Source: Flavobacterium lindanitolerans
Lineage (GTDB): Bacteria; Bacteroidota; Bacteroidia; Flavobacteriales; Flavobacteriaceae
NCBI RefSeq assembly: GCF_002846575.1
Contig: NZ_PJND01000007.1
Coordinates: 1,922,001-1,986,000 of the forward strand
Length of the DNA: 64,000 nt
Direction: 5' to 3'
Positions 28,038 to 33,139 of the stretch are shown here, piece after piece (position 1 is the first letter of the stretch; each line of letters starts with the position of its first letter). Both the position numbers and the translations under genes were made by a program. The notes under the pieces are model-generated. The model did no database searches and was not told the DNA's origin. It saw only the letters and a list, made by a program, of their open reading frames with translations.

Positions 28038-28144
28038 CTTTAAAAGGAATATTTTTTCAAAAATACGAAGTTTATTAAGTTATTTATTCATTATCCTAAC
28101 AAGTATTTTTTTAAAGAAAAGCTTTCGAATTGTTATTTTTATTT

Positions 28145-28152
28145 TATATTTG
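28145..28152 (+). promoter_or_regulatory. -7-like box for the four-gene Cys-peptide locus
   Basis: TATATTTG matches TAnnTTTG, 46 bases before the ATG at 28199. It is the only clear promoter motif upstream of the unit ending at 32206. Confidence 0.5.
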
Positions 28153-28198
28153 TTTTATATCGATACAAATTATTTATAAACCAATTAGATTTAAATTT

Positions 28199-28507
28199 AT
28201 GAAAAAAATTAAATTATTTTCAACTTTTTGTTTGTTTACATCTTCCTTTAGTTTGCTTGCTTCAAATAACGGAAAAGAAGAATTTAGACAAAATTTTAAT
28301 GAAGTTACTATGTGCTGTGTTGGTCAAGCTAGCAAGGGGATAGCGGGAACAGCCGATTATATAAAAATTTCAGTTAAAAAATGTGCTACTTCAGCCAAAG
28401 GTAATAGAGACCAGGCATATGTTTACGCATGTACTAATGCGCAAAAGGCAGCAGAAAATGCTCTAAATGCTCTTAAGAATATGGATTTAACACTAAAACA
28501 ATCTTAA
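28199..28507 (+). CDS. Small secreted four-cysteine protein A
   Basis: The 102-residue protein starts at ATG 28199 (MKKIKLFSTF), which restores a normal signal peptide ending near LLAS. The upstream in-frame ATG at 28130 lies before the promoter box. After cleavage it has CC at 39-40, C62 and C78, in the contexts VTMCCVGQASKGIAGT, VKKCATS and DQAYVYACTNAQKAAE. The C-terminal third is alanine-rich and probably helical. The downstream protein has the same pattern, so the two are paralogues. I recognise no family. Two disulfides or a metal site are possible. Confidence 0.75.
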   Translation: MKKIKLFSTFCLFTSSFSLLASNNGKEEFRQNFNEVTMCCVGQASKGIAGTADYIKISVKKCATSAKGNRDQAYVYACTNAQKAAENALNALKNMDLTLKQS

Positions 28508-28510
28508 GAG

Positions 28511-28813
28511 ATGGGAAGAATAATTTTAACAGTGTTATCGGTCTGTGTTTTTTCTCAATTCGCTTCGTCAAAAAATCAAACAGATATAAAAAGAACAGAT
28601 TCTCCTGTTGCTTGCTGTGAGAGAAGGGCTGAAGGAGGTGTAAGAGGGACAAATACTCATACGGTTGTTGTGGTGAAAACTTGTGTCACATCAGATATTT
28701 CATATCAAGATGCACAGGCGAAGGCATGTAGTAAAGCAGGAAGGCTGGCTGATTTAGCCCTGCAAATGTCAATGGAAATAAAAGTACCTGTTACCATTGA
28801 AGCCGGAAAATAG
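28511..28813 (+). CDS. Small secreted four-cysteine protein B (paralogue of A)
   Basis: The 100-residue protein has a signal peptide (GRIILTVLSVCVFSQFASS). Mature cysteines are CC at 35-36, C58 and C73. The CC-to-C distance is 22 residues in both paralogues, and the last gap is 15 here against 16 in protein A. Shared contexts are CC..RAEGGVRGT / CC..QASKGIAGT, VKTCVTS / VKKCATS and QAKACSKAG / YVYACTNAQ. It begins three bases after gene A and ends two bases before the GLPGLI gene. The function is unknown. Confidence 0.75.
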   Translation: MGRIILTVLSVCVFSQFASSKNQTDIKRTDSPVACCERRAEGGVRGTNTHTVVVVKTCVTSDISYQDAQAKACSKAGRLADLALQMSMEIKVPVTIEAGK

Positions 28814-28815
28814 CC

Positions 28816-29550
28816 ATGAGACACATTTTTTTACTATTACTATTATTTACTATTTCAATTTGTTGGGGTCAAACCCTTACTGTTGATTATAAGTTTGATT
28901 TAGCTGATGATAAAGATAAATATGGCTTTTCATCATTCGGAATCATCAGGCTGATAACAGATGGCTCAAATAGTATTTCCTATGTGAAAGTTACAGATAC
29001 CATTGTAAGTTTTAAAAATATTGGTGAAACTATACAAAAGGCTTCCGAATTTGATTTTTCAAATCCTGCTGAATATAAAGATTTTGTTTCTAATGAATAT
29101 TATTCGAAAACAATTTTCCCTAAATATTTGCTTAAAGACAATACCTATATGACTGCATGGACTATAACTGGAAACTATAAAGAAATATTAGGATACAAAT
29201 GCCAGCAGGCTGTTGGAAATTACAGGGGTAGAGATTATACACTTTATTTTACAACAGCAATCCCTATTCAAAACGGACCAAAAAAATTTGATGGCTTACC
29301 GGGTCTAATCCTGGAAGTTATTTCAAATGATGGGGCTATACATTACAAGGCTATTAAAATACAGAATAGTAATGAGGTTATAGAAAATCCTTTTGATAAA
29401 TTAAACCTATCTTATATTAATTGGGATCAATTTATCAACGCTTATAAGGATTATTTTAAAAGAATAACCAATTATGTGCCTGATGAAGATACAGCTATTT
29501 TTATTCCTAAAAGAGGCATTGAGGTATATATAAATGACAATAATGAATAA
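28816..29550 (+). CDS. GLPGLI family protein
   Basis: The 244-residue secreted protein has a signal peptide (RHIFLLLLLFTISICWG) and the hallmark motif GLPGLILEV at about residue 160, preceded by YKCQQAVGNYRGRDYTLYFT and IPIQNGPKKFDGLPG. The family (TIGR01200) is confined to Bacteroidetes and often lies next to TonB-receptor-like barrels, as here. The conserved lysine/cysteine of LGYKC precedes the motif. No biochemical function is firmly known to me. It overlaps the start of the barrel gene. Confidence 0.88.
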   Translation: MRHIFLLLLLFTISICWGQTLTVDYKFDLADDKDKYGFSSFGIIRLITDGSNSISYVKVTDTIVSFKNIGETIQKASEFDFSNPAEYKDFVSNEYYSKTIFPKYLLKDNTYMTAWTITGNYKEILGYKCQQAVGNYRGRDYTLYFTTAIPIQNGPKKFDGLPGLILEVISNDGAIHYKAIKIQNSNEVIENPFDKLNLSYINWDQFINAYKDYFKRITNYVPDEDTAIFIPKRGIEVYINDNNE

Positions 29551-32206
29551 TTTATGTTACTTCATAATTATTGTTTTTTTTACCAGTTTTGACTTTAAAG
29601 CACAAACTATAAAAGGCACGGTTTTTCATGAAAATGAGACCGTGCCTTATGCCAGTGTCATAATTCGTAAATCGGAAAATAGTAGTTCTATACATCAATA
29701 CACAAAAACAAACAAAGAAGGCTTTTATCAAATAGATTTAAAAGAATCCTTAGATTCAATTTGTGTAGAAGTGAACGCTCTTGCTTTTGAATCACAGATA
29801 AAACATTTGAGTAACATTCAAAAAAATAGACAAATCATTATTTTAAACTTTAATCTTGAAAACAAACCCACAGAATTAGAAGAAGTAGTTATTACTAAAG
29901 AAGTGCCAATCAGAATTAAAAATGATACGACTACTTATAATCCTGAAAGTTTTAAAGATGGAACAGAGAGGGTTGTAGAGGACTTACTTAAAAAACTACC
30001 CGGTATTAAAGTGGAAGAAAGCGGAGAGATAAAATTTAAAGGCAAAAGCATTAAAAAATTCTTACTTGATGGAGATGATTTGTTTAATAGTCAATACACA
30101 ACCGGAAGTAAAAATCTCAGTGTTGACATGGTTGAAAAAGTTCAGGCTATTGAAAACTTTAATGAAAATGCAATGCTTAAAGGACTTGTAAATGCTGAGG
30201 ATGTAGCTATTAATATCTTACTGAAAAAGGGAAAGACAGACCTCTCAGGTGATGCTTTTTTTAGTTATGGAATTCAAGACAGGTATAATGTTTCAATGAC
30301 GGGTTTGTTTGTGAACAAAAAGACAAAAGGTTTTTTAACAACGGCCTACAATAATATTGGCAATAATTACAGTCCGTATGATTTTAGTTCTGAAATTACT
30401 TCATTGAGCCAAAAAAGCGAAAAAGAAGAACAAACTAAAACATTAATTGGTCAGGGAGGATTTTATTCTCAACTGGAAAATAAATACCATAGGATAAACA
30501 GTAATTTTAATTCGGAACTAAATTTATTGCATAAATTTTCATCGAAGATTACGGCAAAAACAAATTTAGGAATTTATGATGACAGACTAACCAGAACGAA
30601 TAAATCACATACTGAATACAGTATTAATGAGGAACAATTTGTAATTAATGAGATTGAAGATATCATTAAAAAACCACGTCTGTATAACGCCAATATTCAA
30701 TTGTCGAATAAAGTAAATGATTGTTTTATATGGGAATATATTGGAAAAGCGAATTATCAGGAAATTGATTTTGACAGCAATAGCCTAAATAATGAAGTAG
30801 CGCAGAAGAATGAGGTAAAAACAACTAATTTTTTTACCAAACAGGATTTTAATTTTACCAATAGGATAAATGAAAATAGTGCTGTAACAGGAGTAGTGCT
30901 TTATAGTAATAATCGGGCTCCACAAGATTTTTTGCTTACCCCTGGTTTAAATATTGAAGAAGGTAATACTAATGCCGTAATCAGCAATAATCAATACAGC
31001 CGTTTTGATAAAGAAACTTTTAAGACCAAAGGTGAATACTACCGCAATTTTAATAAAGCGAAATTGAAATTGATGGCAGGATATTTATCTGTCAATAATA
31101 CGCTAAACTCAAGCCTGAAAGCAAATTATTCTGATGGTACGGTTTATACAGACAGGCTTTATCAAAATAGAATGCGCTATAAGTATCAACTTCCTAATGT
31201 AGCTTTAAGTTTGAGTTATATAAAAAAACAAAAATATGGTTTCGCAATTTTATTTAATAATCAGTATTATGATATCGCCCTGAATGACGAAATCAGAAAC
31301 CTGAACAGGAAAGAGGAAAAATTTGTCTTTTCACCAATAATGAAGTTCCAGTATGTTTTGAATACCAAATCTAATCTGGTTGCTACCTATAGTTATAATG
31401 AAATAGTTCCTTCTGAAGAGCATCTTTTTGAAGGTTTTGTGCTTACGGGTTTTAGAAGTTTCAGAAATAATAGCCCCAATATTTCATTTTTAAACACACA
31501 TACCTATAATCTTAATTATATTTATAATGATACTTTTAAGGTAACCCGTTTTTCTGTATCCGGCAATCATAATAACAGGAGTAATAATTATTTTTCAAGA
31601 AATACGATTAACCTTGATAATACTTTTACAAATTCATTTTTATTGGAAGCAGGCAATAGAGATTACAGTTTGAATTTGGATTTTGAACGTTATATGCATT
31701 TTATGAGGACTACCCTGCAGATTAATGGCAGTTATGCCTTATCATTTGACAAAAACATTGTAAATGATTCCAATCTAAGAGATGTTGAATCCAGGCTATT
31801 GTTTATAAACTGTGTTTTAAGAGCCAGTTTCAAATCAAAATTTTATATTGAAAACAATTTTAGTTATTCTACTATTGACTTTTTACTGGATAATGTGATT
31901 CAAAACCGATTTAGCAGTTTTAATGATACTTTTAAAATGACTTATAAAATAAGACCTGATTTGAAGGCCAATCTAGCTACTAATTTTGTCTTTCCGGATT
32001 TGTCAAAAAACAACAATTATCTGTTTTTAGATTCTGAACTGCGATATACGCCTCTAAATAAAAGATTTCAATACGCCTTAATTATGAGAAACCTGACCAA
32101 TAATAAGAAATTTGAAACAGTTTCAATTTCCGACTATTCAAAAACCATAGCTTCACATAATTTATTGGAAAGATATATTCTGGGGAGCGCTTCTTTTCGG
32201 TTTTAG
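29534..32206 (+). CDS. Outer-membrane beta-barrel protein, TonB-receptor class, with carboxypeptidase-like regulatory domain
   Basis: The product has up to 890 residues. A signal peptide (CYFIIIVFFTSFDFKAQ) is followed by a CarboxypepD_reg-like fold (IKGTVFHENETVPYASVII), a plug-like region (ELEEVVITKEVPIRIKNDTTTYNPESFK, LLKKLPGIKVEESGEIKFKG) and a long barrel rich in Asn, Tyr and Phe with a terminal Phe (SASFRF), as in outer-membrane barrels. Start may be ATG 29534 or 29543; both overlap the GLPGLI stop. The class of barrel partnered with GLPGLI proteins usually takes up or binds an unknown ligand. Together with the two small Cys proteins it forms one transcription unit. Confidence 0.85.
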   Translation: MTIMNNLCYFIIIVFFTSFDFKAQTIKGTVFHENETVPYASVIIRKSENSSSIHQYTKTNKEGFYQIDLKESLDSICVEVNALAFESQIKHLSNIQKNRQIIILNFNLENKPTELEEVVITKEVPIRIKNDTTTYNPESFKDGTERVVEDLLKKLPGIKVEESGEIKFKGKSIKKFLLDGDDLFNSQYTTGSKNLSVDMVEKVQAIENFNENAMLKGLVNAEDVAINILLKKGKTDLSGDAFFSYGIQDRYNVSMTGLFVNKKTKGFLTTAYNNIGNNYSPYDFSSEITSLSQKSEKEEQTKTLIGQGGFYSQLENKYHRINSNFNSELNLLHKFSSKITAKTNLGIYDDRLTRTNKSHTEYSINEEQFVINEIEDIIKKPRLYNANIQLSNKVNDCFIWEYIGKANYQEIDFDSNSLNNEVAQKNEVKTTNFFTKQDFNFTNRINENSAVTGVVLYSNNRAPQDFLLTPGLNIEEGNTNAVISNNQYSRFDKETFKTKGEYYRNFNKAKLKLMAGYLSVNNTLNSSLKANYSDGTVYTDRLYQNRMRYKYQLPNVALSLSYIKKQKYGFAILFNNQYYDIALNDEIRNLNRKEEKFVFSPIMKFQYVLNTKSNLVATYSYNEIVPSEEHLFEGFVLTGFRSFRNNSPNISFLNTHTYNLNYIYNDTFKVTRFSVSGNHNNRSNNYFSRNTINLDNTFTNSFLLEAGNRDYSLNLDFERYMHFMRTTLQINGSYALSFDKNIVNDSNLRDVESRLLFINCVLRASFKSKFYIENNFSYSTIDFLLDNVIQNRFSSFNDTFKMTYKIRPDLKANLATNFVFPDLSKNNNYLFLDSELRYTPLNKRFQYALIMRNLTNNKKFETVSISDYSKTIASHNLLERYILGSASFRF

Positions 32207-32233
32207 TTATATGTGTTTCAAAGCTACGAAGTA

Positions 32234-33133
32234 TTAGATAGATTCGTTCCTGACTTTAATTTTTTTATTTCTTAAAACGGTCATCATTTCAAGCCAATGT
32301 TTGTCACGAAGGGTTCCTGCTAAAAAGCGACTGTTGTCAAAATCTTTTGTGATAATTCGTAACGCATTCGGTTGTCTTACTTGCTGGTCATATACTATTT
32401 CTCGAATGTCTTTAAGTAAGTAGACTTTTTTAATCCAAAAGAAGTAATGATTTTTTACAATAAAATACTTATTAGAAATCTGAAAATAATGAGCCATCCA
32501 GGAGTTTAATAAAAACCAGAACAAACAAAAGGCAGATACAACCAATATAGGAACAAACTCAAGGCTTTTAGGGTTTTTTGATGGTACAAAAATGACGAAC
32601 AGGATAAGCCCCCACATCATAATTCCCCTAAAAGAAAAAATGGGATGGCCTTTAAAAGTTTTTAAGTTCTCAAATGATAAATTCTTTTTTTCTAAACGTA
32701 TTTTTTCAAACTTAAATGCTTCGCTTTCGTTGATTACAACCTGATTGATAAAACTTTTGATTTCAGGAGAGTTAGCGTAATAAACATCATAAATACAAAC
32801 CACCTCCTGATTTTTGAATAAAATCTTTGTTGCTTCGTAATCAGAATGGATATATCCCATTCCTTTTCCGGTAATTTCGATTTCTAAACGATCATTCCAA
32901 TAGTATTGTTTTTTTCCAACTTGGATTCCCTTATCATTTACAATAATCTTTGGCGATTTTTTTAAAAAAATATAATTGAAGACTGCCGCCATTCCAATAA
33001 AAATAAATCCAAGAGCATGTGCATTTACTTCATTACTTATAAAAAAGAAGATACTAAAGCATAAGAAGGCTAGGTTTATTATTAGAAGTGCAAAATAAAA
33101 CTTATAAGGATGTCTTCTGGATGTGATTTCCAT
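32234..33133 (-). CDS. Hypothetical membrane protein with two PH-like halves
   Basis: A 299-residue protein with two pairs of membrane helices (FYFALLIINLAFLCFSIFFFI / ALGFIFIGMAAVFNYIFL and GIMMWGLILFVIFV / FVPILVVSAFCLFWFLLNSW). Each pair is followed by a beta-rich soluble part (PKIIVNDKGIQVGKKQYYWNDRLEIEIT and NKYFIVKNHYFFWIKKVYLLKDIREIVYD). The strand pattern recalls bacterial PH (bPH) domains, an inference. No enzyme motif is present. It converges with the barrel gene and lies six bases after the ZIP transporter gene. Confidence 0.6.
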   Translation of the reverse strand: MEITSRRHPYKFYFALLIINLAFLCFSIFFFISNEVNAHALGFIFIGMAAVFNYIFLKKSPKIIVNDKGIQVGKKQYYWNDRLEIEITGKGMGYIHSDYEATKILFKNQEVVCIYDVYYANSPEIKSFINQVVINESEAFKFEKIRLEKKNLSFENLKTFKGHPIFSFRGIMMWGLILFVIFVPSKNPKSLEFVPILVVSAFCLFWFLLNSWMAHYFQISNKYFIVKNHYFFWIKKVYLLKDIREIVYDQQVRQPNALRIITKDFDNSRFLAGTLRDKHWLEMMTVLRNKKIKVRNESI

Positions 33134-33139
33134 AAAAAC

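Follow-up and report, generated by a model that had tools for sequence, protein, structure and literature searches.

A four-gene unit of Flavobacterium lindanitolerans combining small cysteine-bearing proteins, a GLPGLI protein and a TonB-dependent-transporter-like barrel

We investigated a window of 64,000 nucleotides (nt) from Flavobacterium lindanitolerans (assembly GCF_002846575.1, contig NZ_PJND01000007.1, positions 1,922,001 to 1,986,000) that holds a four-gene unit on its forward strand. The unit belongs to a wider pattern across related bacteria and combines a TonB-type transporter with a GLPGLI protein and an operon-encoded mini-protein. The genes lie head to tail and encode two small proteins with predicted N-terminal signal peptides, S1 (28,199–28,507, 102 residues) and, after a gap of 3 nt, S2 (28,511–28,813, 100 residues), followed after 2 nt by a GLPGLI family protein (28,816–29,550, 244 residues), whose gene end is overlapped by 17 nt by the gene of a TonB-dependent-transporter-like outer-membrane barrel (29,534–32,206, 890 residues). 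The list of open reading frames (ORFs) and the letters themselves contain all four adjacent frames at the place and on the strand given in a preliminary description of this DNA. A literature search, covering open-licence papers, returned neither a paper on this four-gene unit nor an assigned role for GLPGLI proteins.

Occurrence of small genes along the barrel tree

A scan with a barrel alignment gave 457 stretches with a relative, of which the best 80 were kept, yielding 79 named loci. A small gene was scored by script as an ATG-initiated ORF of 45–135 residues with a signal peptide according to a crude rule, at least two Cys after it, and an end near the GLPGLI start. Such a gene was found before 23 of 56 GLPGLI genes, and the corresponding count for other ORFs with 200 residues or more at the same loci was 5 of 360 (Fisher p = 5.7e-18, a value that overstates the significance since the loci are related). 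Two further GLPGLI genes, out of 58 found, were at edges with too little upstream sequence and were excluded. The script misses small genes that are visible on reading (L032, L034, L045, L064) and passes likely chance frames (L067, L069, L229), so that one of the 23 positives, L067, looks spurious.

A quick tree of the 79 barrels, in which two edge barrels were excluded and long branches were flagged (including L071, L035, L028 and L060 in clade A), separated clade A, with 23 barrels, from clade B, with 56, at a support of 99. Among the GLPGLI-paired barrels, a small gene was present in 18 of 22 cases in clade A and in 1 of 21 in clade B, this last one being the spurious L067 (p = 2.3e-7). On reading, the clade-A misses correspond to a 63-residue frame with Cys (L032), a two-Cys frame without recognised signal (L060), a signal-bearing frame with one mature Cys (L064) and, in L026, no small ORF. 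The sole clade-A barrel without adjacent GLPGLI gene, L071, has a small gene and a GLPGLI gene 1.4 kilobases away. Of the clade-B barrels without GLPGLI gene, 33 had enough upstream sequence (two more are at contig edges) and one was scored; its frame, in L069, resembles a two-segment membrane protein.

A general association of small Cys proteins with GLPGLI/barrel pairs is unsupported; it holds for part of the family only. In a control on the 63 top-scoring TIGR01200 genes of 148 order-level and 148 phylum-level genomes, a small gene preceded 2, which rules out a general claim that GLPGLI genes have small Cys partners; most tested members of the family have no such gene upstream, and the association concerns one part of the barrel tree. 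Likewise, the window genome has five GLPGLI matches and, of the four examined, only the window's own is preceded by a small gene; the fifth, in a 557-residue frame, was outside that comparison.

In loci fetched with a narrower GLPGLI profile, A8, 27 of 79 GLPGLI genes with enough upstream sequence had a small gene by script, at least one of them by chance (L229). Sorting held-out barrels with a two-class hidden Markov model was uninformative (16/52 versus 0/4, p = 0.31), because a third barrel clade was absent from the training set. This third clade, of 23 held-out barrels, appeared in a FastTree tree of 129 N-terminal pieces of 470 residues; it has a small gene in 1 of 23 loci and includes L097, the other paired barrel of the window genome. 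The held-out barrels grouping with clade A, the window's own included, had a small gene in 15 of 23 cases and those of the two other clades in 1 of 27 (p = 5.4e-6), the groups having been drawn after seeing the tree. In the same tree clade A splits into parts and the third clade stands beside one of them, so more than one gain or loss must have taken place.

The small proteins are of several types, which were aligned in sets before the trees were made: A5 is the S1/S2 type, A10 and A11 have the order C, strand, turn, strand, C, helix, and A12 is helical with two Cys. Only S2 was modelled and the other types were judged by eye. In the 129-piece tree, the A12 loci fall in one barrel subclade of 13 rows (7 of 7 placed, 3 unplaced) and the A5, A10 and A11 loci in another one of 30 rows (16 of 16 placed, 6 unplaced). 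The small-protein type therefore follows the barrel. Full-length hhalign comparison gave probabilities of 96% for A5-A11, 32% for A5-A12 and 95% for A5-A10, the latter over 19 signal-peptide columns only. When the sets were cut before the first mature Cys, with L025 and L027 poorly aligned in this comparison, the values were 27% for A5-A11, 2% for A5-A10, 84% for A10-A11 and less than 1% for the three comparisons with A12. A single origin of the strand-strand-helix sets is therefore unsupported.

Relatives and genomic sites of the unit

A search with S2 found relatives in 3 of 199 genomes, namely the window genome, F. microcysteis (L018) and Flavobacterium sp. SM15 (L022). Profile A1, built on the small proteins, had matches in 9 of 398 genus genomes at E ≤ 0.01. 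The four matches at E ≤ 0.001 (G000, G111, G011, G344) all have GLPGLI and barrel genes directly after them, in agreement with the view that the small proteins are dedicated neighbours of this pair, and homologues occurring widely away from such neighbours, a possibility raised in the preliminary description, were absent from this 398-genome search. The five weaker matches cover profile positions 1 to 30–43 only, that is, the signal peptide. Additionally, the protein database contained 6 relatives of S2 and 5 of S1, 70–94% identical.

In the window genome and in F. microcysteis the unit sits between murQ and a ZIP gene, a stretch that spans 28,038..33,139 in the window. The guanine plus cytosine (GC) content is about 0.30 for the unit, compared with about 0.37 for its flanks. 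We use odhA, murQ and polyprenyl synthase as presumed names, given from the sequence; a Pfam scan supports the SIS-domain, ZIP and RlmL neighbours. A search of 60 relatives found murQ in 53, and the 30 best murQ loci were compared. In the 29 others, the ZIP gene is near murQ in 22 and was unseen within the available stretch in 7, and neither GLPGLI nor barrel gene was found within the available stretch of any. In SM15 and G344 the unit adjoins odhA and a gene for a secreted protein of 182–196 residues. The odhA site of the window genome has these neighbours and no unit, and the murQ site of SM15 (L250) is equally empty. Since the same gene order occurs at two sites, each empty in the other genome, the four genes move together as a block.

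The murQ-ZIP interval also holds a 299-residue gene on the reverse strand (32,234–33,133), of low GC and without Pfam match. It is fast-evolving, with a ratio of nonsynonymous to synonymous substitution rates (dN/dS) of 0.23, and a 38% identical relative adjoins murQ in L258; this gene may be part of the inserted stretch. A promoter scan gave 19 sites against a mean of 23.0 in shuffles, i.e. no excess.

Other arrangements were seen around related units. An orphan GLPGLI gene without barrel lies next to a complete unit in L023 (2,621–3,352), and a GLPGLI gene followed by an apparently truncated barrel start lies next to a complete unit in L032 (1,756–2,722); both are signs of duplication and decay. 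Psychroserpens sp. SPM9 (L034, 3,903–9,185) has two small-gene/GLPGLI sets with the barrel in between. Tandem runs of at least three GLPGLI genes occur in G884 (contig 23) and G1079 (contig 5), and in tandem GLPGLI pairs with a small gene, the latter precedes the first copy (L216, L217, L222, L227).

Properties of the encoded proteins

The Cys residues of S1 (C39, C40, C62, C78) and S2 (C35, C36, C58, C73), each protein having one more in its signal peptide, follow the common spacing CC-x21-C-x15-C and CC-x21-C-x14-C, with the VKKCATS/VKTCVTS and AC contexts noted earlier. The two proteins share 32% identity over 74 residues (E = 0.002, BLASTP, single comparison), and S2 as query retrieved S1 at E = 1.6e-5 in a whole-genome search. 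This likeness exceeds chance, and judged by their sequences S1 and S2 are paralogues. In L023 the first small gene product is closer to S1 (38%, versus 29% to S2) and the second to S2 (43%, versus 33% to S1). Because each copy is nearer its own counterpart, the pair looks older than the split; such an ordering of the paired small genes was not shown in L022.

Comparison of the window with F. microcysteis gave a dN/dS of 0.23 for S1, 0.22 for S2 and 0.15 for the mature parts of both, compared with 0.15 for GLPGLI, 0.13 for the barrel, 0.10 for an AraC-type gene and 0.016–0.033 for murQ, ZIP, methyltransferase, RlmL and TerC. The preliminary description had allowed that the small frames are untranslated; with values below 1, both look translated. 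These values indicate genes maintained as proteins and yet fast-changing. Alignment A4 has a mean column identity of 20%, which reflects a strong divergence.

Conservation in A1 is confined to columns of Cys, Gly, Ala and the first Met, and a scaffold therefore fits better than an enzyme. The metal site suggested in the preliminary description was abandoned, as A1 contains no conserved His, Asp or Glu. Neither S1 nor S2 exceeded a cut-off in the curated families of Pfam and NCBIfam; DUF7692 for S1 (E = 0.0098, below cut-off) and SLBB_2 for S2 (E = 0.13) were rejected. When 28 small proteins were scanned against the same databases, no family was matched by more than one member and the best E was 0.0041, the cut-offs being printed for the first member only. 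A sequence search of the Protein Data Bank (PDB) gave nothing significant.

The mature part of S2 was modelled with AlphaFold2 (AF2) as strand-strand-helix (strands 14–23 and 32–41, helix 46–70), with a mean predicted local distance difference test score (pLDDT) of 82.9 and core blocks at 91–98. All four Cys are within the model core, and fold searches gave no clear structural relative. L027 and the members of A10 jointly lack the equivalents of Cys 1 and 3 and keep 2 and 4, which suggests disulfides C1-C3 and C2-C4, although a kinship between A5 and A10 is unsupported. An exception that speaks against this pairing is P0005, a close S2 relative, which lacks Cys 1 alone, with Phe for the first Cys of the CC motif, and keeps Cys 3. 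The kept two-disulfide fold put forward earlier is supported, short of proof, by the S2 model and by homologues in which Cys 1 and 3 are missing together.

The third protein is a member of the GLPGLI family, since it exceeds the cut-offs of TIGR01200 (123.4 bits, cut-off 50) and Porph_ging (PF09697; 40.7, cut-off 25). It also matches PF22252, the N-terminal domain of PNGase F-II (30.7, cut-off 27.6), and its profile aligns to that domain in 7zgn (1.6e-7) and 4r4x (1.3e-6). The entry 7zgn is a solved 'Glpgli family protein' with a chain of 559 residues. In these structures the domain belongs to a longer chain, of about 550 residues, whereas the GLPGLI protein of the unit stands alone beside the barrel. 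By eye, its signal peptide has no canonical lipobox. The single Cys of its mature part, C129, is invariant, occurring in all 26 GLPGLI proteins of an alignment; as those without small partners carry it too, it has no special link to the small proteins. TIGR01200 has matches in 57 of 148 genomes sampled at order level and in 43 of 148 sampled at phylum level; for A8 the counts are 280 of 349 at family level and 88 of 296 at phylum level. GLPGLI genes are named among PhoP targets in the available text of one study (PMC9603813).

The AF2 model of the barrel (mean pLDDT 88.2, predicted template modelling score 0.77) comprises, with limits set by eye, a CarboxypepD_reg-like domain at about 25–115, a plug-like part at about 125–235 and a beta barrel at about 237–890. 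Foldseek against the PDB gave Cir and FhuA as best matches at E of about 1e-16, and FecA too, the query template modelling scores being only 0.29–0.41. The barrel profile has matches to the N-terminal domain of SusC homologues (5.7e-11) and to a region of 9gbc that spans this domain and the plug (1.4e-6). PF13715, at 31.5 bits, is just below its cut-off of 32.2 and PF13620 reaches 24 (cut-off 32.3); as this domain is common, these scores say little for or against it. No curated barrel, plug or receptor family of Pfam or NCBIfam matched at E ≤ 1. On the predicted fold, a large barrel with an N-terminal plug, the protein is TonB-dependent-transporter-like, "like" being used because the evidence is one of fold, without curated plug or receptor family match. 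It contains a TonB-box-like motif, LEEVVI.

Possible routes of the mini-proteins and related systems

Considering the sequences of these parts, we tentatively propose, as a reading that may well prove wrong, that S1 and S2 are mini-proteins exported by Sec and then moved through the outer membrane by the barrel, the GLPGLI protein acting as periplasmic helper. Their predicted Sec signals would take them as far as the periplasm; there the GLPGLI protein would likely hold or present them, and the barrel would pass them outward as its dedicated cargo, probably powered by TonB. We infer here the GLPGLI role, the contacts between the parts, the outward direction, the use of TonB and the two disulfides. 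The outward direction is proposed because the cargo already has a Sec-type signal, because the ORF list, Pfam and NCBIfam gave no curated inner-membrane transporter or peptidase among the four genes of the unit, and because there is a published case of a TonB transporter needed to secrete a protein, that of Oar in the release of PopC by Myxococcus xanthus (PMC6434023, available text). With a Sec-signal cargo, a GLPGLI protein without lipobox and an outer-membrane transporter only, export would be the simplest use of exactly these parts.

Several observations weigh against such an export. The solved transporters that resemble the barrel are importers or receptors, and a strict TonB-box pattern matches no more than 14 of the 24 clade-A rows, with 3 matches among 9 other rows. 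GLPGLI/barrel pairs without small gene are common, so the pair has a job without such cargo, and 8 of the 23 held-out loci in the associated part of the tree have no small gene by script. Moreover, the drop of the A5-A11 probability from 96% to 27% without the signal peptides leaves a common origin unsupported.

The resemblance to importers would suit a rather unlikely alternative in which S1 and S2 exit otherwise, bind something outside and are taken back, themselves or their load, by the barrel, in the manner of a secreted binding protein and its receptor. A ligand-receptor pair would also be expected to show the tracking of barrel subclades by small-protein type. Nevertheless, the unit offers no second way out through the outer membrane and contains no gene for inner-membrane uptake, and A1 has, apart from Cys, no conserved ligand for a metal or haem.

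It is also conceivable, but unlikely, that the mini-proteins stay in the periplasm as small regulators or stabilisers of a GLPGLI/barrel complex. Only a Sec-type signal is seen, and the existence of pairs without small gene is what an add-on would produce; however, sets without detectable similarity fill the same slot, and a divergence as strong as that of A4 would be uncommon in a regulator whose partner is better conserved.

An antagonistic role, with S1 and S2 as bacteriocin-like peptides, the barrel as exporter or receptor and the GLPGLI protein for self-protection, appears improbable. Their small size, Cys content and variability, their occurrence in pairs in the window and at L018, L022 and L023, and the orphan and tandem GLPGLI genes would fit. 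Against this, the anti-phage system models of PADLOC gave 0 matches for the four proteins at E ≤ 0.01, the dN/dS values of 0.15–0.23 denote purifying selection, GLPGLI genes are common without small genes, and no maturation enzyme or ATP-binding cassette (ABC) gene was found among ten neighbours scanned with Pfam, two of which had no Pfam match at all. Finally, that small ORFs lie upstream of GLPGLI genes by accident, as the 2 of 63 high-scoring GLPGLI genes with one could suggest, is hardly credible in view of the control frequencies, the tree clustering and the block move.

The proposed export has likenesses to known systems. Oar resembles the barrel of the unit in having a plug and a barrel and, probably, in its N-terminal CarboxypepD_reg-type domain, but its cargo PopC is a protease and, unlike in the unit, no GLPGLI partner is mentioned in the available part of its account (PMC6434023). 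In the graspetide loci of Bacteroidetes, according to the available text of PMC8939145, a small ribosomal product is likewise encoded beside a TonB-type outer-membrane protein, and the barrel proteins near the precursors are predicted to export them. The unit differs by having no ATP-grasp or other maturation gene in ten neighbours and a product with a Sec-type signal and Cys pairs. The CarboxypepD_reg-like domain recalls SusCD systems through its match to SusC homologues; the unit, however, has no SusD-type gene and its barrel no SusC family match at E ≤ 1.

More broadly, and still more doubtfully, Bacteroidota may possess a secretion route in which Sec delivers Cys-stapled mini-proteins to GLPGLI proteins and special clades of TonB-dependent transporters run outward to release them, with unrelated folds (strand-strand-helix, helical) replacing one another in the mini-protein slot and the GLPGLI and transporter parts retained. 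The outward carriage of tiny proteins would be an unusual job for a TonB-type channel. If the barrel does export S1 and S2, this would extend the outward function of TonB transporters beyond the case of Oar. GLPGLI proteins are widespread in Bacteroidota, and a small, operon-encoded, secretable partner provides a concrete and testable ligand or cargo candidate for a GLPGLI/transporter pair.

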